From NCBI RefSeq assembly GCF_009730915.1, contig NC_052489.1:1302001-1366000 (forward strand): 64,000 bases of DNA, in the 5' to 3' direction. Each line of letters starts with the position of its first letter. Positions within the stretch are counted from its first letter, which is position 1. A program made the translations under genes and the position numbers. Below the pieces are notes generated by a model. The model saw only the letters and a program-made list of their open reading frames with translations, was not told the origin of the DNA and did no database searches. This document shows positions 3,447-33,100 of this stretch, piece by piece. Source of the stretch: Dioscorea cayenensis subsp. rotundata (lineage: Eukaryota > Streptophyta > Magnoliopsida > Dioscoreales > Dioscoreaceae).

Positions 3447-3959
3447 TGTTGTGATGTGGAGAGCTGCTGGCTTGAGGTGTTCGACGAAATGTCTCTAGAT
3501 TATCCGATAATGTAAAACAATCATTCAAAGAGTCAAAGTATAAAGTGGGAGACAGAGGAAAATCTCAGCCAATTCAAGAAGTCCATTAGCATTTGAATAT
3601 ATATATATAACAACAGACAGGTAGACACTTAACTCAGCGACTATTGGGCGAGACACCAAAACGTTCTCCTATTGGTCTGTCCGTAATCTTGACTCACCCA
3701 ACCATTGGACCAACCCAAACACCCAGAGATTCAAACATTAAAATACTAATATATCAAAAGGTTTCCAACTACTTTAAACTACCCACAGGGCTCAGTATCC
3801 ATGCCCTGCAATCTCTGAACACAATGGTTCTCCATCCTCTCTGGTACAGCACCATGCTAGTTTGCTTCTCCACAAGCACCAGCCTTTCCCCCACACCACA
3901 CGCCTCACTTGCTCACCATGCCCACTGTCTGGGTCTTGTCTTCAATCACCATCTCAACA
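3447..3959 (-). repeat. 3' LTR of copia-1
   Basis: 513 bp, TGTTGTGATG...ATCTCAACA, nearly identical to 7967-8486. The last 18 codons of the pol frame run into it, as is common in copia elements. It differs from the other LTR mainly by one- or two-base indels, which make it 7 bp shorter. Confidence 0.92.
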
Positions 3960-6900
3960 CCCCCTCTTGATTGAAACTCGTGGACTCCTATCATACTCCT
4001 CATCATGGCATGCTTCTCTGGCGGAAGAGGTTTTGTGAACAAATCTGCAAGTTGGTCATAGGTAGAGCAGTGTTGGACGGCGATTACTCCATCACTCACC
4101 AGGCCCCTGATGAAATGGTAACGAACGTCGATGTGCTTGGTCCTTCCGTGGTGTGCCGGATTCTTTGCCACAGCTATAGCTGATTGGTTGTCACACCAGA
4201 GGCATATTGGTTTGTTGAAAACATGCCCGCATTCCTCAAGCAGTCTCCTGAACCATACAATTTGACACGCAGCTGCGGTGGCCGCTATGTACTCTGTTTC
4301 CGTGGTCGACAATGCCACCACATCTTGCTTTCTAGAACTCCAGGATATGGTGCTTTGCCCCAACCGAATTACCACCCCGGTTGTGCTCTTCCGATCGGGC
4401 ACGGATCCTCCCCAGTCACTATCTGAAAAGGCTTCAAGCATTCCACCACTATCTCGAGAGAACCATAGACCAAGATCTTTGGTGCCAGCGAGATACCTCA
4501 CTACACGCTTGGCTGCAGTGAAGTGTGAATTACAGGGTGAATGCATGAACCTTGCTAGATAGCTAATAGCAAAACAAGTGTCTGGTCGTGAGTGTGTGAG
4601 ATACAGCAGCTTCCCAACAAGGCTTCTATACATCATTGGATCAGTGAGCTCGGCATCAGTGCTTCTGAGTGTCTTCTCATTCACTCCCATGGGTGTCGTC
4701 ATGGGTTTGCAGTTCACCATGTTGAGTTGGTGCAGAATCACATCAATGTAGTTTTTTTGTCTGATAAATATCCCACTTGATACTTGTTTAATCTCAAGCC
4801 CGAGAAAGAAACTCAGCTCACCCAGGTCTGACATGTCAAAGGTCTTCATCATGTCTGCCTTAAACTGGTTCACAAGAGCACAGGACGAACTAGTGTAGAT
4901 GATATCGTCCACATAGAGACTCAACAACAGACTGTCTCCATTCTTCAATACCTTCCTATACAAAGTATGCTCGAATTCACTTCGAATGAAGCCATGATCA
5001 CGAAAGTGTTGATCAATTCTTCCGTACCAAGCACGGGGGGCTTGCTTCAACCCATACAAAGCTTTCTTCAATCTGTAAACTTGATTTTCCTTCCCTTCAA
5101 TCTCATAGCCCTCCGGTTGCTGTACATATACCTCCTCTTGTATGTCCCCGTTCAAGAAAGCCGACTTCACATCAAAGTGATGAACCGTCCAGCTTGCATG
5201 AGCTGCGAGCGCGAGCACTAGCCTTACTGTTTCCAACCTAGCTACTGGAGAGAACACCTCCTCATAATCCACACCTTGCCTCTGTGAGTATCCCTTGGCG
5301 ACCAGTCTGGCTTTCAGTTTGGCAACCTCCCCTTGTGCATTCATTTTAGGCTTGAATATCCATTTCAACCCCACAGCATGCTTCCCGGATGGTAGCTCAC
5401 ACAGCTCCCAGGTGCAATTCTTCTCGATTGATGCCATCTCAACATTCATAGCCTCCTGCCACCCCTTGTGCTTCACAGCTTCTTTGTAATTTGCTGGAGC
5501 ACCTGCACACAATGCAAAGGTACACCTGTTGTATATCTCTTCCAGTGAGCGGGTTTTCTTTGATGGTGTTTCTTCAGCTTGTGTCCCCAGCTCATCTTGT
5601 CCTCCTATAAGCTGAGTTGCAACCTCTCCAGATCCGCAATCTGCATCACCCGCGGCATCATGTGCATTATCAATTGAGATTTCTGGGCCTCTATGAGCAC
5701 GGCCATCCCAGTTCCACCGTGAGTCCTCATGAAACATTACATCCCTGCTTACAATGACTCTACAAGTGACGGGATTAAATAACTTATATGCCTTGGATTC
5801 AAGGCAATACCCAATGAACACACATTTTTCAGCTTTATCACTAAGTTTCTTCAACTTAAGTGATGGAATTAAGGTGAAAGCAATGCAACCAAACACACGG
5901 ATATGTTTCACAGATGGTTTACCTCCATGCCAAACCTCGTAGGGGGTCTTGTCCTGCAGCGCGCGAGTCGGTGATCGATTGACAAGGTGCACTGCAGTGG
6001 ACACTGCCTCCCCCCAGAATTTCACGGGCAGTCCTCTACTCTTGAGTAGTCCTCTGGCCATTTCAACAATAGTGCGGTTCTTGCGCTCAACGACGCCGTT
6101 CTGTTGAGGTGTGTAAGGGGCTGTAAATTCCCTCCGAATGCCAAACTCATTACAGTAGTCCTCGAATTCTTTTGATGAGAACTCGCCTCCACGATCGCTT
6201 CTTACTGCCTTGAGCTTCATGCCAATCTGTCTTTCTACAGATGCATGAAAGATGCGAAACTTGGCAAAGGCCTCGGCCTTATTTTTGATGAAGAACACCG
6301 TGCACCATCTGCTGTAATCATCCACCAACAGATAGAAGTACCTGTTACCTCCCAGTGAATCCTCGCTCATTGGACCACAGAGGTCCATATGAACCAACTG
6401 AAGACATACATTGGCCCTCCGAGACCCTCCACTGGGAAATGAGTTTCTTGACAGTTTCGTCAATGCACATCCTTCGCACTGCACTCCTTGCTTCAGTTCA
6501 GGTATCCCGAATGCCAACTTCTTACGAGCCATGGTCATCAGACTGTTATAATTTAGATGACCCATCCTTAGGTGCCACAACTCCTCTAGTGTTTGACACC
6601 TGGTATTCAGCACTAAACTTCCCATCTTCGCAATGTCGAGTGGAAACATGTTGCTCGATCTCGGAATGCATATTGCTTGACCCTTCACATGATTATCAGA
6701 GATAACACATTGGTTCTTCTCGAACACCACAGAGTACCCTCTGGTAAGAAACTGCCCCACGCTCAAGAGGTTATGTGCCAACCCCGGCACATATTGGACT
6801 CCATGTAATTTCTTATGGGTTCCTGTGCTTGTGCTTACAGCCACGGTCCCTTCTCCACACACTTTCATCTCCTTATCATTTCCCAGTCTCACCTTGATGC

Positions 6901-7941
6901 TCAATGACTCATCAAAGCTGCTGAACAAGGATTTGTCCCCGGTCATGTGGTTTGAACACCCGGAATCTATGAGCCAAACGGAACTTGATTGTTCTCCTGT
7001 GGAGTAGCTGGCCATGAAAAGATTCTCGGTACATTCCTCCTCTGCAACAAGCCCAGCACCCTGCTCTGGTTGCTTTTCACGTGCTCTGCATTCGGCTTTT
7101 ACGTGGCCAAATTTCTTGCAGTGATAACACTGGATGTGACTTTTATTATCGAAGCCCCTTCCTCGTCCGCCTCGGCCTCGACCTCTCCCGCGTACGAATG
7201 ATCTCCCACGACCCCGGCCAACTCCCCATGAGCTCCCAGCACTCCCACCTTTGTTGTGGTTTGAGATTGAGTGCTCGGTCTTGACATAGAGGGCTTTCTC
7301 TACAGTTTTCCCGGCAGCTCGATTCACCCTCACCTCGTGAGCTTGCAGCGTTCCACAGAGATCATCCAGAGTGAGCTTCGCGATCTCCTTCGACTCTTCA
7401 ATCGCGACAGCAACCCAGTCGAACTTCGGCGCCAGACTCCGCAGCACCTTGGAGACAACCTCTGGCTCCTTGAGCTTGTGCCCTAGAGCTTTAATCTGGT
7501 TAGTGATCGTGATGACCCTCGAGATGTAAGCCTGAACACCCTCGTCGTCGCCCATTTGTAATGTCTCAAAGTCCTGTCGGAGGGCTTGGATCCTCAGCGA
7601 CAAGACTTTGGACGTCCTCGAGCGATGCTTCCTCAAAAATCTCCCAAGCATCGATGCGCCGATTTGGCCTCGGCTATCCGGGTCGAGATTTGGCCCGTCC
7701 ACCGCTTCTTTGGATCAAGCACGACGCTTTTCGCATCTCGCTTCGGTTTTCCCTCTCGACCGCCTCGTCCTCGACTCCGTCACACCATTCTCCACCAAGT
7801 CCCACGCTCACGGGACACGAATCACGGTTTTTCATCCACGAGATTCCACCGCCCGTACTCCTGCCCGGTGAACACCGGAACTGACGGTTGGGAGAGACAC
7901 ACTGGAGCCCCTCCTGGTGCCGTCGAGCTGCAGGTTGCCAT
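3905..7941 (-). CDS. Copia-1 Gag-Pol polyprotein (5' end frameshifted)
   Basis: The main uninterrupted frame is 1265 codons (7702-3905). In order it shows: the end of Gag with a CCHC zinc knuckle (CYHCKKFGHVKAEC) preceded by an Arg/Gly-rich stretch; aspartic protease (WLIDSGCSNHMTG); GAG-pre-integrase (LWHLRMGHL); the integrase core with RSDRGGEF and TPQQNGVVERKN; reverse transcriptase with YVDDIIY; and RNase H, ending with the typical FQSRGG tail. Gag begins at the ATG at 7941 (residues MATCSSTAPGG...), but between about 7825 and 7690 the Gag homology moves between frames, so the N terminus is broken by small indels. Everything from protease onward appears intact. Roles: capsid assembly, polyprotein cleavage, cDNA synthesis and integration. 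Confidence 0.88.
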
Positions 7942-9208: not shown

Positions 9209-9832
9209 TCTTACAATATTTCAGAAATCAAACATAAAAGCAAATATACTCATGGACATCCTCCATCATGTTACCACTCTCTTCTTTGTTATCACCCTCT
9301 TCTCCATCTATCTCGTCCATCACTACTCCAATAAAAGACCCTCCAAAAAACTCCCTCCTAGTCCTCCATCACTCCCCATCATTGGCCACATTCACCTCCT
9401 CAGACCCCTTCGCCACCTCTCAATCCACTCCCTTTCCAAACTCTACGGCCCCGTCGTCAGCCTCCGTCTCGGCTCTCGCAACACCGTCATTCTTTCCTCT
9501 CCTGAGGCTGTTGAAGAGGCCCTCATCAAGAAGGCCACCATCTTCTCCAACCACCCTGTTGTCAAAGTAGGACAAATCCTCGGCTACAACAACCACTACA
9601 AGAAAAACAGTAATTTGGCACGATTTATTTGGCACGGTTTTGATTCCGTGCCAAATTTGTCACGGAAATTGGCACGAACACAAAGTTAGTGACAACGTTA
9701 GCACGGTATTTGGCACGGTTACCAAACCGTGACAATTTTGTCACGGTATTTAGCACTATTTATATTTTCGTCTAAAATTTAAATAAAAATCCGTGTCAAC
9801 ACCGTGCCAAAAACCGTGACAAACAATCAGCT

Positions 9833-10800
9833 CTTTATTTGTCACGGTTTTTGGGACGACCAAAGCAAAACCGTGCCAAAAATAGTGACAATGAAGCATA
9901 TAGTATTTGGCACGGTTTTTGGCACGGTCTAGGCTTGGCCGTGCCAAAAACCGTGACAACATCTCATCTCTTTATTTGTCACGATATTTGGCACGTGCAA
10001 GCCAAAACCGTGCCAAAAATCGTGACAATGGAGAACATGTCATTTGGCACGGTTTTTGGCACGGTCTAGGATTTCCCGTGCCAAAAACTGTGACAAACAA
10101 CTCATCCCTTTATTTGTCACGATATTTGGCACGTGCAAGCCAAAACCGTGCCAAAAACCGTGACAATGGAGAACATGTCATTTTGGCACGGTTTTTGGCA
10201 CGGTTCTAGATTTCCCGCGCTAAAAACCGCGACAAACACCTCATCCCTTTATTTGTCACGATATTTGGCACGCGAAAGCCAAAACCGTGCCAAAAACCGT
10301 GAATAATGGAGAACATGGCATTTGACTACGCTTTTTGGCACGTTTCTAGGCTTGCTCGTGCAAAACCGTGACAAACACATCATCCCTTTATTTGTCATGA
10401 TTTTTGGCACGACCAAGGCAAACCTGTGCCAAAAAACAATGACAATGGAGAGCATGGCATTTGGCACGGTTTTTGGCACTTTCTAGGATTGTCCGTGCCA
10501 AAAACCGTGACAAACACCTCATCCTTTTATTTGTCACGGTTTTTGCACGGACAATCCTAGAACGTGCCAAAAACCGTGACAATAGAGTACATGGTATTTG
10601 GCACAGTTTTTGGCACGGGCAAACCTAGAACGTGTCAAAAACCGTGACAAACACCTCATCCCTTTATTTGTCACGGTTTTATGACATATCAGCCAAAACC
10701 GTGCCAAAAATCATGGATCAATGAAGTACATGGATTTCGACACTGTTTTTTGGCACGGTTTTAACTTGGTGGTGCCAAAAACCATGACAAATCCCTTTTT
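9833..10800. repeat. 138-bp tandem subterminal repeats of the CACTA element
   Basis: Seven copies of a unit that starts near CTTTATTTGTCACG (about 9833, 9970, 10108, 10247, 10386, 10524, 10662), with a spacing of 137-139 bp. Each unit contains GGCACGG and CCGTGCC motifs in opposite orientation, so each can form stem-loops. The left subterminal block 9606-9830 holds shorter versions of the same motifs. Open frames through this array are artefacts of the 138-bp period, which is a multiple of three. Confidence 0.9.
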
Positions 10801-11345
10801 TGTGACGGTTTTTTGGCACGAACAACCCAAAACTATATCAAAAACTTAATTTTACTCTATATTTATAATAATAATTACATAATAATTATACTCTATTTAT
10901 AATAATTACTCACCCACAATAAAAAAAACTTATTTTTTTATATTATAATTTAAAATTAGATAAGTATAAATTTTCTTGGATAATATAAATACGCATACAC
11001 ATGATATTTCTATATTTATAATAATTACATAATAATTATACTCTTTTTATAATAATTACATACCCACAATAAAAAAAAACTTAATTTTTTCTTGCATAAT
11101 ATTTTCTTATAAAGTCTCTATACTTCACAGAAATATATAAGAATTTTATTGCATAATTTAATTACGCATACGATATTCAATATTTATAATAATTATATTC
11201 TATTTATAATAAATTTTTATATTATAATTTAAATTTGATAAGTATAAATTGACTAATATAATTAAAATTGATTATTTTAAAAATTTTAAATAAAACTAGG
11301 AATGTCTTTATTTGGTACAATATTTGGCATGCTATTTGACACGGT

Positions 11346-11775
11346 GTGCCTAAGATCATGCCAAAAATCGTGACAAAATCCCTAAACCATTCTCCCAAAA
11401 CACCCGCCTTGCTTCTTCATCATCGTCCCTCCGTGTTGTTTTTAGGCTTTCTAATTAGGATAGGGGCCCAGTGCTTTGATTTACATGTTAGGAGAGGTAC
11501 CTATTGGAGGAGTAGAGGAGGTAGGAAGAAGCTCGAGCTATCACCGCTGTTGTTGCCGTCATTACTACTGATGAGCAAAGTTTAGCTCAGGAAATATCAC
11601 AAGGAACCTCAAGCCCCTCACTGATGGATCAACCTAGTCTGGAACGTGTCGGACAGGAAAAAGCTCGAACACATGTCTTACTGTCGTAGACTCATTTGGT
11701 GGTGAGCATGAACACCAGAGACTTTAACACGATCAATGCATCAGAGCTGCACGACATCTACATAGAAAGGTACCT
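11346..11775. other. CACTA internal sequence of unknown origin
   Basis: Higher GC than its surroundings, with short open frames on the + strand (for example 11346-11585) but no domain I recognise. It could be a second captured host fragment or part of a decayed element gene. Confidence 0.3.
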
Positions 11776-12139
11776 TCTAAACAATATTTTTGAACATCTT
11801 TTAGCCCTTTAACCCCAAATCAACAATCTTGAAGCAACTGAATTTTTTTAATATAATTAATCAAATAAGTATTTTATTCATAATTATTAATATCATCAAC
11901 ACTAACAAATATCAATAATTAATTTGAACATGATAAATTTATTTATTTTTATTAGTGTTAAAGTTGGGTAAAAATAATCCTTCCCTAAGTGACTGTGTCC
12001 CTTTTTTTAAATTTTCTTTCAGAAAAAATCCATTATTTAAAAACCAATATGATACTAATTTTCCACTAAGAAAATAAATAAATAAATAAATAAAATATGG
12101 AAATTTGTAATTAACATAGAAACAAGGGTCTTAATCAAA

Positions 12140-12329
12140 TGGGCTTTTTAACTGGGTTTGGTAGCCCAACTTTGTGGATAAACTTGGAAGGCTATCAGCC
12201 GTTGCTTCCATCCACTCCGCCAATCTCAACCGTTGACGAAAAACGGGATATATACACACGCGATTCCTAGCTTTTCTTCTCTTCCAATCCAATCTTTCGC
12301 CTCCAGAAACCCTAGAGGTGAAACCCTAG
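12140..12329 (+). promoter_or_regulatory. Captured promoter-like region with TGGGCY and telo-box motifs
   Basis: TGGGCT occurs at 12140-12145 and, inverted, AGCCCA at 12163-12168. Telo boxes AAACCCTAG occur at 12307-12315 and 12321-12329, with a TATATA-like stretch near 12248. Site II elements followed by telo boxes in the 5' leader are characteristic of plant translation-machinery genes, and the eIF3d fragment begins 47 bases downstream. The natural reading is that the eIF3d promoter and leader were captured with the gene; that step is inference. Confidence 0.55.
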
Positions 12330-12375
12330 AACCTTGATCTCCTCTCGTGGTATCCGAAGCTCTAGATCACCATTA

Positions 12376-12934
12376 ATGGGTTTCGATTGGTCGATGGGAA
12401 GCCCTCGCCGCGTCCCAAGTTTTGCCCCAAGTGGCGGTTTCAGCAGCGTCCTCAACTCTCCAGCGACGCGATGAGGAGGTCGAAGCCCGCCGACGTGAGG
12501 CTAAGAAGGAGCGTGCACGCCGAGATCGGATTTACCACCATAACCACTGCTCTTCTGGCCCTCCATCTAATGCTCACCAAGGTCCCCAGTGTTGCGAGGC
12601 CTCTTCTCTCAAATCTTCTGTCGATATCCAGCCTGAATGGATAATGCTCGATCAGATCCCCTTCTCTACCTTCACCAAACTCTCCTTCTCCGTCCCCGAC
12701 CCCCCGTAAGACTTCGATTTCGTGGTGCCCTCGAGCTTTTATGACCGCCTCCCTACGATCGCGTCAACCCTAAGAACGAACGCGCTCGAGAGTTTCAAGA
12801 CCCGGAATTTCTTCAAGGTCACCACCACCGCCGACCCTCGCCATCCGCCACCTCGCTAATGAAGATAAAGCCACCGCCTTTTGCCATCGATGCCATCCTC
12901 TCCACCCTTATGTGCGCCCCAGCTCTGCCTACTC
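12376..12934 (+). pseudogene. Captured, rearranged fragment of eIF3 subunit d
   Basis: Pieces in different frames match plant eIF3d: an initiating ATG-GGT-TTC-GA (MGF..., as in the native N terminus) is joined directly to the internal segment VDGKPSPRPKFCPKWRF. After a frameshift come RRDEEVEARRREAKKERARR and LDQIPFSTFTKLSFSVPDP. Then, again shifted, come KTRNFFKVTTTADP and the HLANEDKATAF / AILSTLMCAP segment, ending near 12934. Native eIF3d is a roughly 570-residue mRNA-cap-binding subunit of the eIF3 complex. Here most of the N terminus and everything after CAP..YS is missing, and small deletions disrupt the frame. It sits inside the CACTA element, so this is transduplicated host sequence. 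Confidence 0.85.
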
Positions 12935-12974
12935 AACTTGTATTTATTTTTATTAAACTTAACGGTTTCAGTAA

Positions 12975-13640
12975 TCATCTTCAGTTGCTTTTTCAGCAAG
13001 TCGATTTTTGCTCGGTTGGAACCTTTGGGCTCGCCATCAATGACCGACCTCTTCTCGCTCAGGTTTGAATTCATTTTCTCGATATTCCTTTTGGCTTGGA
13101 CTTTACATGCTATATACTCGATCAATATACATATACACGGACCAATTTATTAAATTTATGGCCTTTTGTGGATAGAAATTTTATGATTTGGACATTCTAT
13201 GGATAGAAAGACTTGTCACTCACAAAAATGTTCATTCTATTTGATGATTTTTGAGTCAAATACACGTAAAAGAACTTTAGTCATTCCGTGAATTATTCAG
13301 GTTTCAAAACCTTGGCGAGATGATGACTCTCATGACGAATGGTGCAAAGAATAACGCCTAGTTTCATTGAAGGCCCCGACCTTGGATGGACCTATTGGTC
13401 ATGCCGGTAATTAACATGCACATTCTGTTTATACAGAATGCATTTTCTTTCTCTATGACTAATGATGATGTACATGCATCTCGTATTTCAGCGAGAAAGT
13501 TAGCATACTTGTGGAGGTTGCCGACTGATGAACACAGGGGTGAAGGTCGGGATCGGGCTTGGCTCACAAAGAGTGCTAACGATTCTATCGCATTGTTGCA
13601 AAACCAAACTCTAACGAAAGCAATTGCAGGATCATAAGTT
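12975..13640. other. Coding-like segment of unknown origin inside the CACTA element
   Basis: Beyond the eIF3d piece there are short open stretches on + (for example 12990-13068 and 13386-13637, the latter including RKLAYLWRLPTDEHRGEGRD) flanked by plausible splice-like CAG sites. I cannot assign them to a family. They may be a second captured gene, possibly with introns. Confidence 0.3.
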
Positions 13641-13895
13641 TATCGGTATGCTTTTACGCATGTCGAGTTTCATGTTGCATAATTTTTATTATGCTTTTAC
13701 ATATGTTATTCTAATTATGACCAAATAAAGACAAAAACATTTGGGTTTAAATTAACTCAATTATTAGTGTACTACTCGATTTCAGTGTGTTTTGTATATA
13801 GAATTGTAGCTTTCTGCTTTATTTGACTTTAAAATTAATCGATGTAGAAACAATAATAGAAATTTTTGCTCGCTCTCCCTTGCAATTAGATATTT

Positions 13896-13898
<3 letters not shown>

Positions 13899-13944
<46 letters not shown>
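13899..13944. repeat. TA microsatellite
   Basis: About 23 uninterrupted TA units inside the CACTA element. Confidence 0.9.
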
Positions 13945-13946
<2 letters not shown>

Positions 13947-15169
13947 TTTCATGTCTTTTGATTTCTTTCTTTGTATTTTTCATCATTTGTTGTTTAGAAG
14001 TAAGTTTCATATGATAGAATTAATAGAATGAATAATAGTGCATGAATATTCCTAGATGAAGGAAGCCAATTACAATAATAAGATGAATAATAGTGCATGA
14101 TTTGGTAAAAGCTTGATTTTTAAAGCTTTTTATGAGTATGTTGTTATTTCTGTGATGTGTTTAGTACTTTCCATTTGAGAGTATTATCCATGGCAAGTGA
14201 TCATTGTAGTCTGTTCATATATTTGTAAGTTGAACATATCGCTCCAAGGAAATAGCAGTGATTAACTTGTAGGCTAATGAAAAAGGTGATTTGCACCAAA
14301 GAATCCCAATGTTTCTTTTTCTTGATTCTGATAGATGGTACCTAACCTTGGGATAGAAGACTGTTTATCACAAGGAAGTATGAAGCTACAACTTTATAAT
14401 CATTTGTTTATTTGAAACTACTGGACTGCTTTTTTTGTTCTTGGTTCCAAGAATTAGTTCTTGGTAGTGGAGACTTGACTTTCTGTTCCTTCTTTTCTCT
14501 GCTATTAATGGTCTAGTTGATGTTATGCAGTTAGAGTATATTGTAAACCAAATCTGATTGTATCTTGCACTCTTTTGGATTCTTAGGTGTAACATTAGTT
14601 TTAATGTTTGTAGGGCACTATACCAAATCAACAAACCAGAACAAAACTCATGATAATGCGTGATGAGTTTTTGGGATATAACGCCTCATTATGGTCGGAA
14701 CAAAGGTTTGAGCTTCACTCACAAATATGAAGTATAAGAATGAATGTGAAAACGTAAGAATTTAGTGGGCTCTACTTAATTATGCTTGTATATGTTATAT
14801 TGCTTAGCCACTTAATGTGATAAAGTTTTTTCCTCCTTTCAGGCAAGGTATTGATCAACCTTTCTAGCATGTCTAATGTTACTCGCATGCCACATGCCCT
14901 TGAACACCGACAGGAGTCACAAATACATGCCGATAAGCACTCTCCAATGCCAAGAGAGTTCGTATTTCTCCATCATAGGATGATGTATAGGGTTATGTTA
15001 GATTGGACCTTATTATTATAATAATGTTATGATTGTAATAACATTTTTGCATATTTTTACCAATATTGTAATTTATATTTTGATGAAATTAAATGCAGGT
15101 TTAATATTAAATAAATTTATTTGAAATTTATTTTATTTTTTAAAATAGAATTGTGTCAAATTCAGTAAC

Positions 15170-15755
15170 AAAAAAAATCATATCAATATCAATACTAAAT
15201 TTAAAACCGCTCCAAAAAAATGTGACAAAAAAATGTGTTAATAATTATGTTAAATTTGAAACCGTGACAAAAAATTGTGACAAAAAAATTATCTTTGTGA
15301 CAAAAATAATTGTGCCAAAAAAATCGTGACAAAAATCAATCGTGCTAAAAACAGTCTAATCAATAACCGTGTCAAAAACCAGTAATAAAATCAATCGCGC
15401 TAAAAACCGTGATAAAAATCATCCATGCTAAAAATAGTGCTAACTAACTGCGTCTAAAAAATCGTGACAAAAATAATCGTCCCCAAAAACTGCACTCAAA
15501 AAGTCGTGTTTAAAACCGCGATAACATTAGTTGTGCCAAAAATCGTGACAAATAAAACCGTGACAAAAACTGTACCTAAAACCGTGACAAAATTGTCACG
15601 GTTTTACTATTTCGTGACAAATTATATTTGTCACGCATGTTATAGGCACGGTTACTATTCCGTACCAAAATCCGTGCCAAAATCAATTTGTCACGGTTTT
15701 TTGGCTTATTTCCGTGCCAAAATTGTCGTGCCAAATTTCTGTTTTTCTTGTAGTG
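15170..15755. repeat. Right subterminal repeat block of the CACTA element
   Basis: Irregularly spaced CCGTGACAAAA, CGTGCCAAAA and related motifs, mostly in one orientation, run up to the right inverted terminus. The block lacks the regular 138-bp period of the left end, so the two ends are asymmetric. Confidence 0.85.
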
Positions 15756-16355
15756 AACTCCACCATCTTCTTCTCCCCTTACGGCCCTCACTTTCGCAAT
15801 CTCCGTCGTCTCACCTCCTTACAACTCCTCTCCAGTCACCAGCTCAACCTCCTCGGCCGTCTCCGTGCTGAAGAGTTCCTCTCCCTCATCCACCGCATGG
15901 TGAAAACCTCTTCATCTGGCGAGGTTGAACTCAAAGAAAGGCTCTTTGAAATGATTTATAATTCAATATCCAAGATGGTAGTTGGAAAGAGATATCACGG
16001 TGACAACGTGGACGTTGATGTGGAGGTTGCCAACCAATTTAAGGATATCATTCAAGAGGTAATTCAGCTTGTGTTCTCTTTCAATCCAAGAGATTTTTTC
16101 CCAGCGTTTGGGTGGTTGGATTTGCTTGGTGTTGAGAGGAGGATGCAGAGGGTGCTTCCAAGGCTCGATGAATTCATCACTGAGATCATAGAGGAGCGCC
16201 GGAGTAAGAGGAGGGTTAATGACGCGGCCAACGGCGGAGGAGAAGCAGGGAAAGAGACTGAGGAAGAGGAGAGGAGTCTGGTTGATGTGATGTTATCTTT
16301 GCAGGAAACTGATCCCGAGACATTCACTGATGAAGTCATCAAGGGCCATATCCTG

Positions 16356-17237
16356 GTCAGCATTCCCTACTTATTTTTGGAATTTTTAATTTTAATTTGC
16401 TAGAAATTTAAAGAAGTATCAAATTATTTTGTTAGTGTTTTTTTTTTTCTCCGGGTTTCACCTCTCGTTACCTAATCCGTTGTTCTATTCTCTTCTCTAG
16501 TCTTTCCTTTTTGTGTTTGTAATTTGCTTTTTTTTTTTAGTGCATGTGTGATTTATTATTATTTTTTAAAAAAATATCCAATTATTTTAGTGGCATTAAA
16601 CTGATTTAATAAAATTTTAAAAAATTGATAAGTCGTGGTAATTAGTTTATCTCCATATATATTTATCTTTTGATAAATTTTTTTAATAGGCCCTTGTTGC
16701 TTATTGTAAAAATAAAATTATCACACTGTTAAATGATCTATTTTATTAATTCTTAAATTTATTTGTAAAATATTTAAGAGTTTGATGTGACTATATGCGT
16801 GTGGTTACTATGTTCGGATTTTGTTCAAACATGGTCAAACATTTACCAGCAACATTGTAAGTCTAGACATGCATGATAAGTATTACATGTTGTAGCTCTC
16901 TTTTATTTTTGTTGTTGGTTTATACTCTATTAATTTCTCCATTTTTTTAAATATATTTATGATTTATCTATTAAAAAAATTAAATAAATACAAAAATAGT
17001 TTACACACCAATAAAGTTAACTATTTAATTATATATATATATATATATATTTATCTTAGTATCAAATATCAATATATAATTGTTTTATTAAATTATCAAG
17101 GAAAAATTAATCAATCATGTTAAGCTAGCATAACCCCACAGATCACTCAATTAGAGAATGCATATTTATATATACGAGTGAACTAATTAATACATATAAA
17201 GTAATAATATATAGTCTCACATTTGAATCATGCACAG
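16356..17237 (+). other. Intron of P450 copy B
   Basis: 882-bp AT-rich intron, GT at 16356 and AG at 17236-17237, phase 0. It is at the same codon position (GHIL | TML..AG) as in copies C and E. No gene is seen inside. Confidence 0.85.
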
Positions 17238-17855
17238 ACAATGTTGTCAGCCGGCAGTGACTCGATAGCAAAGACAATTGAGATAACCATGTTGTTTCTC
17301 CTTAGCCACCCGGAGATACTGAGGAAGACGAAGGCGGAGATAGACACTAATGTCGGCCATGACCGCATCATTGACGAGTCAGACCTGCCTAACCTCCCTT
17401 ACCTCAAAAACATCCTCAAAGAAAGCCTTAGGCTAGGGATGCCAATGCAAGTAATGCCACCGAGAGAGTCCTCCAATGACTGCACCATTCAGGGTTACCG
17501 CATTCCTAAGGGCACAATGCTTCTAGTTAACCTCTGGGGAATTCAACGAGACCCGGAGTTATGGGATGATGCTATGAGCTTCAAGCCGGAGAGGTTCGTC
17601 GGTGAGATTGAAGAGAAGGGTTTGAAGTATTTAGCGTTTGGTGCCGGAAGGAGGAAGTGCCCTGGTGAGCATTTGGCCGTGCGCATGGTGACGGCTGCAG
17701 TTGGTGCATTGGTCCAGTGCTTTGAGTGGGAGACGATGAGTAAAGAGGAGGTTGATATCAATGCATTACTTGGCCTCACTGTGTCTAATGGTAAGCCTGT
17801 GGTGGCTAAGTATAAGGTACGTGACTGCATGGCTGATGCTCTTTCTAAAATTTAG

Positions 17856-21570: not shown

Positions 21571-24218
21571 AATGAGATAATTTCGTATGGATTTAATGGA
21601 GGACTATGAACTGCCGTATCTCTCCAGCTGATTACTAATAAAATTTGGTTATATACACATAAGATGTTTGATTATAGATGGTTCTATACGCCTGATTCTC
21701 CTCGCTGCTTGTGAGTAATTAACGAATGTTTTTTTAAAGATGCAAATTAATATGAAGAAAATAATATGAAATATATTGCATCTATCACTCCCCGAGCCTG
21801 GTGCACTAACAAATGACGGTATACCTACAAAGCTGATACCTAATATATCAATACACATAGATTTATATGTAGTAACACTCTATTAATATGTCACGCCCCG
21901 GACCCGGTCAAAGCGAATCTGATACAAGGACAAATGGCTAGTCCCACAAGGCGAGAGCCCGGTGAGCCTGCAAGACCTCAAAACCTAACTCAAAGTGAAA
22001 AATAAAATAAACTAACAAAATACATAATACAGATACAACTTTAAGGAATATAACAATGTTCAATACATTATAATCAAAATATAGAAATATCCCAAAGGGT
22101 AGGGTTTTAGCAACCACATGCATAACAAAATACAATAACATAAGTCTCAACTCAAGCGAAAAAAATGTGACTACTAGAATATTTCTAAAATCCTTGGGTC
22201 TATTGCTCCTGATTTGAAAAAGATTTTAAACAATTTCATGAGCTCATTAACCCAGTAAGTAATTCAAAAATTTGAAAAAAAAAAGTTCGGATTTGAAATA
22301 TGCAGAGTAATTAATAACCCACAATTATAGCAATCAGATGAAAATAAGAACTTAAATACATAACAAAATATAACAGATTTTTCGAATAACAGAATATGTC
22401 TCCAAATTCATTATAGATGTCAGAGGTCATTTGTTTACCATCGGTGACCCTAGTCAGAATAACAGATGTCATTTGTTTACCCTCGATGATCTGAAGTTGA
22501 ATATCAGAGGCCGTTATTATTTTATCGACAGATTGGTTCAAAACCGTAGTCTTAATTTTCTCAGAATTGTTTGTCAATAAGATCAATGTTTAACACCCAC
22601 TTGACAGGGTTAGGTATAGTTCACTTGGAGACAAAGATCCTCAAACAAAACTCATAACCATGGAAAGATTCACAAAATTTCCTAAATGTACATGTAACTA
22701 TAAATACCAAATGCCAAGTTACAGCCTGATGCTTCCACTTTAGAGAGGTAATAATAATTTTTAAAATAACTAAAACCATTATATCACCATGATTGGATGG
22801 AAGACAACCCATAGAAAATCAATGTGCAAATAGTAAGTAGTAAGTATTTAAATAAAATGAGTAACTAACATGAATTAAAATAACTATATAAACAATTAAA
22901 TAATAATAGAATGGATAAATATATGTTTAAATAAAAGTTTTGAAGACATGGCTACTGAAAGTATGGGTATCAACAAAAGTCGTTAATTAAATATAATTTG
23001 ACTAGATGATAAACATAATTCAATGGAGGTTGAAAATGACGCAAGTGTACATGTTGATAATGTAATAAAATGTGCATAAAATCAGGATATTGGTCCACAA
23101 GAAAGAATGAGATTACTAGTACTAGCCTTAGTTCCAAAAATTAGCCTAATTAATCTAGTGATGTGTGTGAAAAAAAGAGAGAAAAAGCAAGAAATACAGA
23201 ATAAAATAGGAGGAAAATCAGGGGAAGAAATGATGTCCGAGCATACGATCCCTCTAGGGTTTGATAAAGTGCAGGACAAAAGTTGTCTAGGTATGCAATC
23301 CTATTTGAACCGAGAAGTTTTCTAAATCATACTAAACCCTTGGTAGAGGATGAAGAGTAATTGAATCGGTATATAGCTAATACAGTCATCCACACAATCG
23401 CAATAACACTCTATGAAATATCATTGAGAATCGCTTAAGTAGATAATCTCTCGTATGAGAAGAGATTACCCTTAAACAGAGTAAAGATGCGATATATCCT
23501 AAAATCTACTCCACATGATTACAAAGAGCACAAAGATACTCATTAGCTCACTAAGGAGACTTGAGGGAGACAAGGTCCCCAAAGTACGATATTTCTAGGC
23601 TTACTCACAATCCCCTCTAATCACGGTATGTCTATGCTAGGTGGGTGTTTTTACGTGTCACAAAGCACATCAAGTTTGATAAATAGAGCCTTCGCCACAA
23701 TATCAATCAAGCATTCAAACACGCAATTAGATTCAAATAGAATGGATTGCAATAAAGAAAACAAGTAAATCAAATGAGTCATGCAAAAGATAAACCCTAG
23801 AGTTCAACTATGCCCAAACACCATGAAATTTAGTTCTCCCTCATTGGAGAACAACAATCCAATAAAAATGAATTAAAATACATAACGAGAATTACAAAAC
23901 TCTCTTAAAGTAGAGAAGAAGATCCCCCCAAAAGCCCTAATTTCTGGCTTTTATAACTCAGGAATTGAGAGTTCTTACGACTGTAAGAGGTCCTTACAGC
24001 TCGAGGCTTACGGTTGTAATAGTGCCTATAAAGTTTTCTGGTTTAGAGTTACACCCATAACCGACCCATAATAGTACCTATAAATAGTGATTTGCTACAA
24101 TATGATGAACATCATACTGCTACAATACCCTTACAGCAAGAGGCTTATGACTGTAACAGTGTGCATAAGATTCTCAGGTTGGGTCTTATGGTCGTAACTG
24201 TGCACATAAATAGTGATA
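21571..24218. other. Intergenic region with retroelement-like debris
   Basis: No gene supported. 21571-21660 is likely the 3' UTR of copy C. From 21889 an LTR-like end is seen. The segment 23340-24218 contains imperfectly repeated phrases (GCTTACGGTTGTAATAGTGC and variants) that look like part of a diverged LTR, but no partner copy exists in the window. Confidence 0.5.
21889..22260 (-). mobile_element. Gypsy-type LTR end fragment
   Basis: Starts TGTCACGCCCCGGACCCGG, the reverse complement of the ...GGGGCGTGACA end typical of many plant gypsy LTRs (compare the GGGACGTGACA end of the solo LTR at 38907-41150). The other boundary and the target duplication were not found, so the right coordinate is approximate. 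Confidence 0.4.
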
Positions 24219-24446
24219 AATAAATGAAAACTCAATATTTAAAGCTTCATAGTCCCCAACAACCACCCACCACCAAACCTATCCCTACCCTCCGCCCCCA
24301 CCACCACCACCACCACCACCGACACTGAAATAGCATTTTTTTTCATCAATACATATCGATTGTAGGCCCTATGACAATCTTACTCTTACCCAAACGAGGG
24401 AACTATCATGAGCTAGGGTTGCTAACTTCGAAGCTGGGATTGCTAA

Positions 24447-27400
24447 TGTGGAGATTTATTGTATGTTTATATATTTTTCAGGTTTTTCAGAGGCTTGATA
24501 TTTTTCAGGTTTTTCAGAGGCTTGTGGGAAAATAGATAACTATGAAATATTCTAAGGTTGTTTTTATAAGAGTGAGGTGTAAGACTCTATATAAGCCTAA
24601 AAAATTAGTCAATGAGAATGAACAAAATTAAAAACAATATGGTATCAGAGAGAAATCTAGTAAAACCCTAACGCGTCGCCGCTGCAGTACCGCCGCTACA
24701 GTACAGCCACCCATCTCTTCTCTACTCGGCCACCACCTTTCTCTTTTTCTGTCAATTGAAGTTTTCCCAAGTGGGGGGGTTGATACCCCACCGATTTCGA
24801 AGAAGGGGTTGACATGGGTTTGATCTAGATCTTGATGACTTGAATAACCAAGATTGTGTCAAGAAACGAAATAAAGGTTGAATGAAAGGGATCTTGATCT
24901 TGTGGGTAAAGAAGATCGAGACTGGGTCAAGTTAAGAAGGGGAAGGAAGTCACGTTATATCTGTGTGATCTAGATTTTGATCTTGTGTTGTTTCTTTTGA
25001 TATTCCCAGGGTGAACTTCACAGAGAAGGGGACAGGTCAGAGACTTGGGACTAGCACGTGGCATAGAGGATTGTGGTACATGGACAGAGAGGGGATGGAT
25101 TCAGCATTGACATCTTTGGTAGAGGGGGCGGGAGTATGAGTGTCTGGGATGAATGTAGAGGAGGTGTTTCTACTGCATCATCGGCGTATGGGACACATTT
25201 CATTGTCTGTTTTGAGTCAGTTGTACCCTTCATTGTATGAAAGGGCAAATTAAGAAAAGTTAGTATGTGATGCTTGTGAGTTAGGAAAATATACTAGAAA
25301 CTCTTATCATAGCTCTGGGAATAAGAGTTTTGGGGTTTTTGATCTTATTCACTTTGATGTGTGGGGGTCTTGTCCGGCAAATACAATCAATGGTTATAGA
25401 TATTTTGTGACTTTTATTGATTGTTTTTCTCGTGTTACTTGGTTGTATTTGATGAAAAATAAGAAGGATGTACTTGCTTGTTTCAAAGACTTTCACAAGG
25501 CAATACAAACTCAATATGGCACCATGGTTAAGGTATTGAGATCCGATAATGGGACAGAGTACACTAACAAGGCTTTCGGGGAGTACTTGTCTACACAGGG
25601 AATACATCATTAGACTACTTGCCCATATACATTGGTACAAAATGGGATAGCATAAAGGAAGAACAGACACCTTCTAGAGGTAGCCTGATGTATGATGATA
25701 TCGATGAATGTCCCAAATTATCTATGGGGGTAAGCAGTCTTGACAGCTGCTCAACTAATTAACAGGATGCCTTCGAGAATATTGGATTAGAAGTCTCCTT
25801 GTGAGATGCTGAAGAGTGATAATGGAGGAGTTCTTCCCTTGAAAGTGTTTGGATGTGTGTACTTTGTGAGAGACAACAGACCAATAGTGGGGAACCTAGA
25901 TCCTAGAGCAATCAAATGTGTTTTCGTAGGCTACTCAGCCACTTAGAAAGGATATATGTGTTGGAGCCCAGGAGAAAGACGATTGTTTGTAAGTATGGAT
26001 GCGACTTTTCGTGAGTCTGAGCCATACTACCTCTTGAGAGTAACCTCACCCTTTGGTGACTCGCCAGATAATGGAGAAATAGGGCAAAAAGGGGAGAAAA
26101 GTGAGGAAGAAAAGGTAATTGAGTTAGAGATGGGATTAGGTCCTGTTTTGAGGGAAGAATTGACCGAGGATGAGCTGGAAGAAGAGGCTGAAATAGAGGT
26201 AGTAGGAGAAAAAAGAAAAGAAAAACAGGCTTATGAGGAGCTGAGAGTGTACCAGAGGAGAGAAAAGGTGAATGTACTTATGCCTACAGTACCACTCGTG
26301 CCAAGTTCCTTGTCTCGGCCTTCTCCAACTCTTGAGATGCCTACATCATCTACCACAAATCTAGGTGATATGATTCCTCTCTTTTCTTCTCCCGTGACAT
26401 TAAGGAGGACTTCTTACAGTAATGCGGGAAATTCTCCTGATCGTTTTGGGTTTCCATATAATATTGACCAGTTTGTTCAATACTCTAATCTATCATCCAC
26501 ATATGGAGCATTCATTACATCTTTGGATATTGTCTCTATACCCAAGTGTTGGCAGGTAGCAAAGGAGGACCCAAAGTGGAAGACAGCCATGAAGGAAGAA
26601 CTAAAGGCTCTTGACAAAAATCACACATGGGAGTTAGTATTACTGCTATCTGGGAAAAGGACAGTTGGATGCAAGTGGGTCTTCACTGTAAAGCAGAATC
26701 CAGACGGCAGGTTGAGCGTTACAAGGCACGCTTGGTAGCAAAAGGGTATAGCCAAACCTATGGCATCGACTATGATGAAACCTTTGCACTTGTAGCGAAG
26801 ATGAGCACCGTCCGGATGTTGGTTTCGCTAGAAGTGAATGGTGGGTAGAAGGTACACCAGCTAGATGTGAAGAATACATTTCTTCATGGGGATTTAGTGG
26901 AGGAGGTGTACATGGATATACCACCAGGATTTGGCACAGACCAAATAATGGACAAGGTCTGCAGGTTGAAAAAAATCTCTTTATGGGCTAAAGCAATCTC
27001 CTCGAGCTTGGTTGGATAGGTTCTTGAGAGCTATGATAGGTATGAGATACCAGCAGATCAACGCTGACCACACTGTGTTCTTTCGACGAAATGGGGGTTG
27101 TGTTACTATACTTGCAGTATATGTGGATGACATGATCATCACAGGGGATGATGAGAAGGAGATTGCCCAACTCAAGGTGAGACTAAGCAAAGAATTTGAG
27201 GTAACGGATCTTGGTTTGCTTCGATATTTCCTTGGGATTGAGATAGCTCGAGGAGCGGAGGAAATGGTTCTGTCTCAAAGGAAGTATGTAATTGATCTTC
27301 TCACGGAGACAGGTATGTTAGAGTGTAAACCTACAGAGGCCGGAGAACCAGTTGATCACGAGAGATACCAGAGATTGGTAGGCAAGTTGATCTATCAGAG

Positions 27401-28323
27401 TCACACGCATCCTGATATCTCTTTTGAAAAATGCTCCATGCATGACCCGAGGAAGGGTCATATGGATGCAGTGTACCAGATCCTGAGGTATTTGAAAAAT
27501 GCTCCTAGAAAGGGACTGATGTTCAGCAAGAATGGTTATGTGAAAGCGTGGTGAGTCGCTACATGCATGACCTGAGGAAGGGTCATATGGATGTAGTGTA
27601 CCAAATCCTGAGGTATTTGAAAAATGCTCCTAGAAAGGGACTGATATTCAGGAAGAATGGTCATGTGAGCATTAAGGAGTACTGTAACTCTGATTGGCAT
27701 GTCTGTGTTCCGATGATAGGAGATCCACCTCTTGTTACTATATCTTGTAGGAGGTAACTTGGTCTCTTGGAAGAGTAAGAAGCAGTCTTTGGTGGCAAGA
27801 TCGACACCATAAGCAGAGTACAGAGCTATGGCTTTGGGAGTTGCAGAGTTATTATGGCTAAAAGGTATGTTGGTGGAGTTGACTTTAGATCAAGGAGTCA
27901 GAATGAAGTTATGGTGTGACAACTAGTTAACTATAAGCATTGCCAACAACCTAGTGCAACATGATAGGACCAAGCATATTGAGATCGATAGGTTCTTCAT
28001 CAAAGAAAAGTTGAATAGTGGACTACTGGAGCTAGGCCATGTTTCAACCAAAGACCAGGCAACAGATTGTCTAACGAAATTGCTTAATTCGTCAGACTTA
28101 GCTAGAGGATGTGACAAGATGGGCTTAGTGGATATCTTTCGCCCATCTTGAGGGTGAGTGTGGAGATTTATTGTATGTTTATATATTTTCATGTTTTTCA
28201 GGGGCCTATGGGCAAATAGGTAACTATGAAATAGTCCAGAGTTGTTTTTATAAGAGTGAGGTGTAAGGCTCTATATAAGCCTAAAAAATTTATCAATGCG
28301 AATGAACAAAATTAATAACAATA
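24447..28323 (+). mobile_element. Decayed, internally deleted copia element with short LTRs (copia-3)
   Basis: Direct LTRs are at 24447-24639 and 28159-28323, with the target duplication GCTAA at 24442-24446 and 28324-28328. The primer-binding site TGGTATCAGAG (24640-24650) follows the left LTR directly. Tandem copy 2 near 29050 has the empty site (GATTGCTAACCC). The LTRs end in ...ACAATA rather than ...CA. The left LTR is longer because a 27-bp phrase (ATTTTTCAGGTTTTTCAGAGG region, 24471-24525) is duplicated. Gag and protease are essentially gone: only about 400 bp separate the primer-binding site from the integrase region. Confidence 0.88.
25050..28150 (+). pseudogene. Copia-3 pol remnant
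   Basis: Degenerate fragments in copia order: integrase zinc-finger/core (25200-25613, including VLRSDNGTEYTNKAF), a linker frame 25956-26738, RT N-terminal region ([20 protein letters not shown] near 26725), RT with YVDDMIIT (27012-27554), and RNase H up to the DIFRPS end near 28150. Stops and frameshifts occur between fragments. A roughly 110-bp segment (27437-27546) is tandemly repeated at 27562-27670, duplicating the region before RNase H. Confidence 0.85.
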
Positions 28324-30163: not shown

Positions 30164-33100
30164 AAAACAACTAATATAAAGACTAAATCAAACATAAATA
30201 TTTATTAATATATTGATCTGCCACGTATGCAGGTTTCAATTAACTCCAACATCCTCCCTTGATTGGAACCTGCGCACTCCAAGCATGAATCTAAAATGAT
30301 AGTGACTTTGAGCAGGCACTACCATGGTAAATATGTCTGCCATTTGTTCTTTAGAACTGCAGTACCTCAAATTAATCTGATCACTTGAAACTGAATCTCT
30401 TATGAAGTGGTACCTTAACTTTATGTGCTTTGTAGGCCCATGAAATATAGGATTCTTGCTAATGGCTATTGTTGATCTATTATCACAATAGATATAGGTT
30501 ACATCACAATGTTTCTGTTCCAAATCCATCAGCAATCTTCTAAGCCATATAGCTTGACATGCAGAAGTTGTTGTTGCAATATATTCGGTTTCTGTTGTTG
30601 ATAATGTCGCAACTTCTTGTTTTCTTAAGCTCCAAGTAATAGCACTTGAACCCAGAAAAAAAAACATGTCCAGAAGTAATCCGATCATCAAATGAGTCGG
30701 CCCAATCGCTATCGGTGTAGCCTTTCAAATGGAAGTTAGATTCATAAGTGTACATCAAGCCATAGTCCATTGTTCCTGAAATATATCTCAAGATTCATTT
30801 TGCTGCCCCAAAGTGATGTTTTGATGGGCAACTCATGAACTTTGAGATTACACCAACTGAGAATGCGGTATTAGGTCGAGTATGAGTTAGATAAATCAGT
30901 CCACCCATGAAACTTCGATACTGCCTTGTATCTGCATCCTCAGTCCCATCTTTCAATTTCAACTTGTCACCAGTGTTCATAGAAGTTACAGTTTTCTTAC
31001 AATGGAGCATATTAAACTTGCTTAGCAAATTCTCTGCATACCTTTTTTGGCAGATAAACACTCCTTCCTCTCCTTGCTTGATCTCTAGTCCCAGGAAATA
31101 ATGTAAAAGACCAAGATCACTCATTTCAAACATCTTCATCATCCCTTGCTTAAACTCATTTGCCAAAGCTTGTGTTGAAGCCATGTAGATGATATCAGCT
31201 GCATACAAGCAAACAAGCAAAAGTTCATTACCTCCTACTCTCCTTTTGTACAAAGTGGGTTCATTTTTTTATCTTTCAAAGCCTTGTTCTATAAAATATT
31301 TATCAATCTTGCTATACCAAGCCCTGGGTGCTTGTTTTAGCCCATATAAAGCTTTTCTTAGCCGATAAACTTTGTGTTCATTCCCTTCAGTAACAAAACC
31401 TTCAAGTTGAGTGACATATACTTCCTCCTGAAGTTCACCATTCAAAAATGCCGATTTGACATCCAATTGATGCACCAGAAATCGTTGATGAGCAGCCAAG
31501 GCAAGAAAGATCCTAACTGTCTCAAATCGAGCTATAGGAGAGAAGGTTTTCTCATAGTCAACTCCATGCATTTGAGAGTAACCCTTTGCAACCAGACGTG
31601 CTTTGAATCGCTGAACACTTCCATCAGCTTTATACTTGGTCTTGAACACCCATTTCAAGCCTATAGGAGTCTTCCCTTCTGGTATATCCACAAAATCCCA
31701 AGTGTTATTCTTTTGAATAGCTGCATATTCTTCAAGCATCGCTTCTTGCCACTCTTCCTTTGTTGTTTCCTCCTCATATGTGACAGGATCTTGAACTACG
31801 AGTGCAAAGTTACAAGACTCATAAATTTCTCTCAAGGATTTTACCTTTAATGGAGGTGTTTCTTCCATTGAAGCTAACGGAGACTGTTCAGGAATTGAAG
31901 ACGTAGAGATAATGTTAGATGTTGAATTTGCAGTCCGTCTAGAAGATGATCTTGCTACACGTTGAGATGATGTTTTTCCAGCTGAGTTTTTTGCAATTCC
32001 AAGTGCTAGAAACTAACAAATTCCTGCTGAAATTTCTGTAGTTTCTGCTGAAATTTATCCAATGCTTTGAGTTGTAGGCATAGGTATGATAAGTGAGACA
32101 TGTGACTGTTGCCTACTTGAATTGATTCCTCCATGAAGTCAACGGGAATCTTTGAATGGCCTTTATCTTTACTGTTGCTCCAATCCTATTCACCATCCTC
32201 AATGAAAATTATATTATGACTAACAATTACAATACCTTTAACATGTTCATATAATCTATATGCCTTTGACTCAACACAGTAACCAATAAATATAGTTTTC
32301 ATTGATTTGGAATCTAGTTTTTGTTGCTGAGGATTGATTAATGAATATGCAATGCAACCGAATATGCGAAGATGATTTACATATGGCTTTATACCTGTCC
32401 ATGCCTTAAATGGTGTTTGATCTAGCACCGCCTTTGTTGGAGATATGTTGAGCAGTTATACAGAAGTTGCCACAGCTTCTACCCAAAAATAGTTTGGAAG
32501 CTTCTTCGCCTTTAGAAGACCCCTTGCCATCTTGATCACGGTTATATTCTTTCTTTCTCCAATTCCGTTTTGTTGAGGAGTGTAGTGTGTTGTTAGCTCT
32601 CTGTGAATCCCTTGTTCCTTGTAATAGATAAAGAACTCTTTAGATAGGAACTCTCCACCCCTATATATTCTCAATGTCTTGATTCGACACCCCTTTTGCT
32701 TCTCTACTAAAGCCTTGAAGTTTAGGAAACTCTCAAAGGCTTGTGGCTTCAATTTGATGAAGAAAGGCCAACATATCCTAGTGAAATTATTCGTGAACAA
32801 CAAAAAATATCTACTACCAGCCAAGGACTCCATTTGCATTGGGCCACATAAGTCAGCATGAATTAGCTTCAAGTGTGTTGATGCTCTCCATTCTTGTCTT
32901 GAAGCAAAATGTCTTCTTGCTTGTTTATTATATATACACCCTTCGCAGAGATCAATGTCATCAATAATAGGAAAACCTTTTACCATTTGTTTCTGGTTTA
33001 ATAGTTTCAACCCTTTGATATTGGGATGGCCATATCTGAGATGCCATATTGTGGAATCATTGTGCTTATATTGACAATCAAGCTATGATTGTTCATATTT

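Follow-up and report, generated by a model that had tools for sequence, protein, structure and literature searches.

CACTA (En/Spm) elements carry subterminal repeats near both ends. Non-autonomous copies depend for their mobility on a trans-acting transposase, whose binding sites are the terminal inverted repeats (TIRs) and the subterminal repeats. The soybean CACTA element Tgm-Express1, located in an F3H gene, is transcribed, and the fragments it carries are spliced as exons, according to the part of that report cited here (PMC1947982). Pack-CACTA elements occur in several plants and may hold pieces from several loci, as described in the cited sections of two further reports (PMC8903248, PMC13317346).

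The element described here lies in the window, by which we mean the whole stretch of 64,000 nucleotides that was analysed. Its borders and repeats, and the gene into which it is inserted, are located as follows.

9252..9593, + strand: exon 1 of the cytochrome P450 gene, portion 5' of the element that splits it (PF00067, E 1.5e-13, profile 1-74)
9591..9593, no strand: left copy of the target site duplication AAC
9594..15755, no strand: whole CACTA element, 6162 bp, with TIRs matching at 17/17 bp and at 29/30 over the first 30 bp
9626..10791, no strand: left subterminal repeats, GCCAAAAACCGTGACA motif with periods of about 69 and 137 bp (24 of 29 motif matches)
15264..15755, no strand: right subterminal repeats, more degenerate, in short-period arrays (4 of 29 motif matches)
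15756..15758, no strand: right copy of the target site duplication AAC
15756..17855, + strand: remaining P450 gene, with open stretches as far as 16403 (remainder of exon 1) and over 17223-17855 (exon 2)

The perfect inverted repeat of 17 bp (CACTACAAGAAAAACAG) starts at 9594, and its inverted copy ends at 15755. The TIR begins CACTACAAG, which is a CACTA-type start, and AAC flanks both ends as the 3-bp target duplication typical of the CACTA (En/Spm) superfamily. The precise CACTA termini proposed in the sequence-only reading were thereby confirmed. The GCCAAAAACCGTGACA motif has 29 matches in the window (at most 2 mismatches) versus 0.03 expected, and all 29 fall within the element: 24 in the left part, 1 at 11360, and 4 in the right part, with many inverted pairs. 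Subterminal repeats of the kind found in the superfamily are thus present at both ends; together with the TIRs and the AAC duplication, they identify the element as CACTA. When the same motif was sought in viral contigs, 12 stretches contained one match apiece, which we regard as chance.

The CACTA element is inserted in exon 1 of the P450 gene, disrupting it. Downstream of the element, PF00067 was matched with an E-value of 1.1e-15 (profile 86-267) and, in exon 2, with an E-value of 1.7e-55 (profile 268-447). Joining the flanks and removing one AAC restores an open P450 frame, in which GYNN is followed directly by STIFFSP and no stop occurs through exon 1; the reading across the joined flanks is ...GQILGYNNSTIFFSPYGPH..., and the empty site expected without the insertion is GGCTACAACAACTCCACC. 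In the relatives at 1530, 19608, and 36884, open frames cross the corresponding position without interruption. Because the P450 frames are open on both sides of the element, the insertion looks recent relative to the decay of the P450 gene.

The interrupted gene is one of several clustered + strand genes that are related to each other and resemble cytochrome P450 (1530-2213, 9252-17855, 19608-21570, and 36884-37831), possibly of the CYP81 type; family membership by Pfam refers to the interrupted gene at 9252-17855 only. Between two of the P450 genes, an open frame of 1265 aa (3905-7702, - strand) reads as a copia-type polyprotein. Broken open frames at 25956-27554 (+ strand) and 30236-33010 (- strand) were likewise named copia-like by reading, and a 125-bp tandem duplication is located at 27433-27668.

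No transposase family was recognized by Pfam in the 30 of 95 listed frame segments that were searched, a search that a decayed remnant could escape. The element does contain host coding DNA, as a Pack-CACTA does, as seen in the matches to PF05091 and to eIF3D chains in the PDB and in a shuffle control. We propose a non-autonomous element of the Pack-CACTA type, whose movement would need a transposase supplied in trans. The leader-like stretch and the eIF3d fragment are located as follows.

12140..12375, + strand: promoter- or leader-like stretch with site II motifs, a TATA-like motif, a pyrimidine tract, and telo boxes
12378..12930, + strand: decayed eIF3d coding fragment (PF05091, profile 82-262 of 532); the end is approximate, and the alignments stop at 12912-12915

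A real eIF3d fragment is present inside the CACTA element, and we hold element and fragment jointly with high confidence. Among the six single-frame segments over the fragment, the frame at 12377-12706 matched PF05091 with 25.9 bits (cut-off 25.2, E 6.3e-6, profile 109-191), and the frame at 12745-13065 matched collinearly but weakly, without reaching the cut-off (E 0.11, profile 208-262); the other four had no eIF3d match in Pfam. A reading that joins the frames, chosen by eye with plant eIF3d as a guide, matched PF05091 in a single ordered stretch from position 82 to 262 of the 532-position profile (E 1.7e-31). In the PDB, at the default cut-off, all six distinct sequences matched by the joined reading were eIF3D (best E 4.5e-15); these alignments span residues 80-182 of its 188 residues, and for the first 80 the evidence is the Pfam match. 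Single-frame searches of the PDB gave no eIF3D chain among nine matches for the 110-aa piece at 12377-12706 and no match for 12710-12856, while eIF3D took the top two of four places, weakly (E 0.12 and 0.2), for 12745-13065.

Because the joined frames had been picked by eye with plant eIF3d in view, the result was controlled by a frame-tolerant alignment. In this control, the DNA scored 160 and 141 against two eIF3D stretches, compared with maxima of 42 and 51 in 200 dinucleotide shuffles each; the reverse strand scored 26 and 23. Among 19 tiles of 600 bp taken across the element, both tiles on the fragment scored 117 to 160, and the remaining 17 scored at most 48, the tile with 48 being one that overlaps the start of the fragment. 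The residues identical to the two eIF3D chains number 41/98 and 41/97. The GC content rises over the eIF3d piece, to 0.65 per 100 bp, and falls past it. The presence of the fragment in the element is thus well supported: Pfam, the PDB, and the frame-tolerant alignment agree on eIF3d homology, which extends over two or more forward frames, as had been claimed from the letters. A search for eIF3d relatives in viral contigs produced ten stretches that fit a pattern, none of which was confirmed.

Two parts of the sequence-only reading had to be abandoned. The eIF3d piece had been called rearranged; the joined reading matches the profile from position 82 to 262 in order, and this single collinear PF05091 match with frame changes gives no support for rearranged segments. 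A codon string beginning MGF had been taken as the initiation site of eIF3d; however, the ATG at 12376 is out of the eIF3d frame and opens a peptide of 32 aa (MGFDWSMGSPRRVPSFAPSGGFSSVLNSPATR) followed by a stop. The eIF3d frame at this ATG reads NGFRLVDGKP (NGFRLVDGKPSPRPKF), and over the bases of the MGF string it reads NGFRLVDGKPSPRPKFCPKWRF; the Pfam match, and with it the joined reading, starts there, at profile position 82.

The stretch upstream of the fragment resembles a promoter with its leader. TGGGCY (site II) motifs are located at 12140 (+) and 12163 (-), and telo boxes at 12307 and 12321, two of each, in agreement with what had been noticed at the outset; AAACCCTAGA has 4 matches in the window versus 0.20 expected. 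A TATA-like TATATA at 12249-12254 and a pyrimidine tract at 12271-12285, both read by eye, complete a 5' to 3' order of site II, TATA-like motif, pyrimidine tract, and telo boxes. Relative to the ATG at 12376, which is a candidate start only, the telo boxes lie at -69 and -55 and the site II motifs at -236 and -213. In the example ribosomal-protein promoters of the cited part of one study, telo boxes are found 0-280 bp upstream of the start codon, mainly inside the 5' UTR, and site II motifs lie 80-400 bp upstream of it (PMC3022908). The spacing here would fit this ribosomal-protein gene layout if translation began near 12376. The motif cluster makes a captured promoter likely; that this promoter came from eIF3d does not follow.

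On the reading that we favour, the element carries a captured piece of a host eIF3d gene, probably along with a putative promoter and leader, and has transposed into exon 1 of the P450 gene. From the order and spacing of the motifs, capture of promoter, leader, and coding piece of eIF3d as one block is plausible, and we give it roughly an even chance. The eIF3d N-terminal part (profile 1-81) was not found in the upstream leader frames that were scanned, and because no scanned leader frame matched eIF3d, capture as one block would imply that this part was lost. The same result, together with the start of the coding piece at profile position 82, would be expected if the leader at 12140-12375 came from a different gene, perhaps one with a role in translation, and entered the element in a capture of its own, with a junction at about 12376. 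The layout of telo boxes and site II motifs is common to many ribosomal and translation genes, as far as the cited part of PMC3022908 goes, and elements with pieces of several loci are described in the cited part of PMC8903248. A separate source for the leader is a serious but somewhat doubtful alternative: leader and coding piece share their orientation, and because they do, and because eIF3d is itself a translation gene, one source is the simpler assumption.

Returning to the coding piece, it has no open frame across the whole eIF3d domain; only profile positions 82-262 of 532 are present, with stops and frame changes. Collinear but frame-broken, it cannot encode eIF3d and is a pseudogene fragment. 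Breaks near 12737, 12751, 12840, 12869, and 12877 coincide in the alignments to both eIF3D targets, while others differ between the alignments; the two targets are related, and the placements are therefore not independent. Between 12690 and 12880, the frame is broken several times, with eIF3d-like residues preserved from one break to the next; these breaks may stem from repair at the time of capture or from an error in the assembly. The five shared breaks between 12737 and 12877, alike as they are in alignments to related targets, amount to much decay, as would be expected if the piece was already a pseudogene before its uptake by the CACTA element. We consider this unlikely, given the identities to the two eIF3D chains that persist between the breaks (the 41/98 and 41/97 residues above) and given that a single copy provides no date of capture.

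Also unlikely is the alternative that the leader-like stretch is no captured promoter and that its motifs arose by chance or belong to the CACTA interior: the motifs are short and other telo boxes are found at 22100, 23255, 23792, 24663, and 51380, but when the 7 telo boxes and 29 site II motifs of the window were placed at random 20000 times, strand ignored, a 200-bp span with two or more of both motifs arose 22 times (uncorrected for the prior choice of this cluster), and the site II, TATA-like, pyrimidine, and telo elements stand in their usual order. The four telo boxes from 22100 to 24663 lie upstream of a copia-like region, two in each orientation.

Downstream of the eIF3d fragment, three blocks with AG/GT borders, picked by eye, resemble exons.

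12997-13062, + strand: first exon-like block
13301-13406, + strand: second exon-like block
13492-13645, + strand: third exon-like block, with 48 codons and then a stop

A second captured gene could be the source of these blocks; such AG/GT borders are common by chance, and the blocks had no match in Pfam or the PDB. An attempt to name a source gene for 11340-11810 gave no family. Several other matches fell below the curated cut-offs of Pfam and were taken as chance: CopD (E 0.023), DUF4587 (0.018), DUF6633 (0.063), CoV_NSP13_stalk (0.18), Sid-5 (0.0056), Ovate (0.17), HMUD2 (0.12), and KSHV_K8 (0.18).

An active leader would yield an RNA with partial similarity to the eIF3d mRNA, either non-coding or with a short ORF. 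A further step, that the element contains a working translation-gene promoter predicted to transcribe the eIF3d piece and the exon-like blocks, and that the resulting RNA is a source of small RNAs directed at native eIF3d mRNA or that the interrupted P450 locus comes under growth-linked control, we consider very improbable. Were the promoter both captured and active, the locus would be an instance of a transposon delivering a growth-linked promoter to clustered P450 genes.

Plant CACTA elements are already well known to capture genes, and the capture of eIF3d is a further example; a literature search pairing eIF3d with CACTA found no relevant report. The locus is a clean case: the borders are exact, the empty site in the P450 gene is clear, and a promoter may be part of what was captured. 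The likeness to transduplicating CACTA elements of grapevine is that part of a host coding sequence was taken up along with an untranslated region; Cactavine-5 holds part of a PPR coding sequence and its 3' UTR beside a transposase, as given in the cited part of that report (PMC2528002). In contrast, the element described here carries a promoter-like leader with the eIF3d piece, and no transposase was found in the 30 of 95 segments. The element resembles Pack-CACTA elements, as characterized in the cited sections (PMC8903248, PMC13317346), in having CACTACAA termini flanked by a target duplication, in its content of host coding DNA, and in the absence of a recognized transposase in those same segments; the comparison here is based on one copy. 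With Tgm-Express1 it shares a similar size (5.7 kb in soybean), the presence of host gene fragments, and insertion in a metabolic gene, as far as the cited part of that report extends (PMC1947982). However, Tgm-Express1 lies in an intron, contains five host gene fragments, and is transcribed and spliced (PMC1947982), whereas the element described here lies in an exon and contains one identified fragment.
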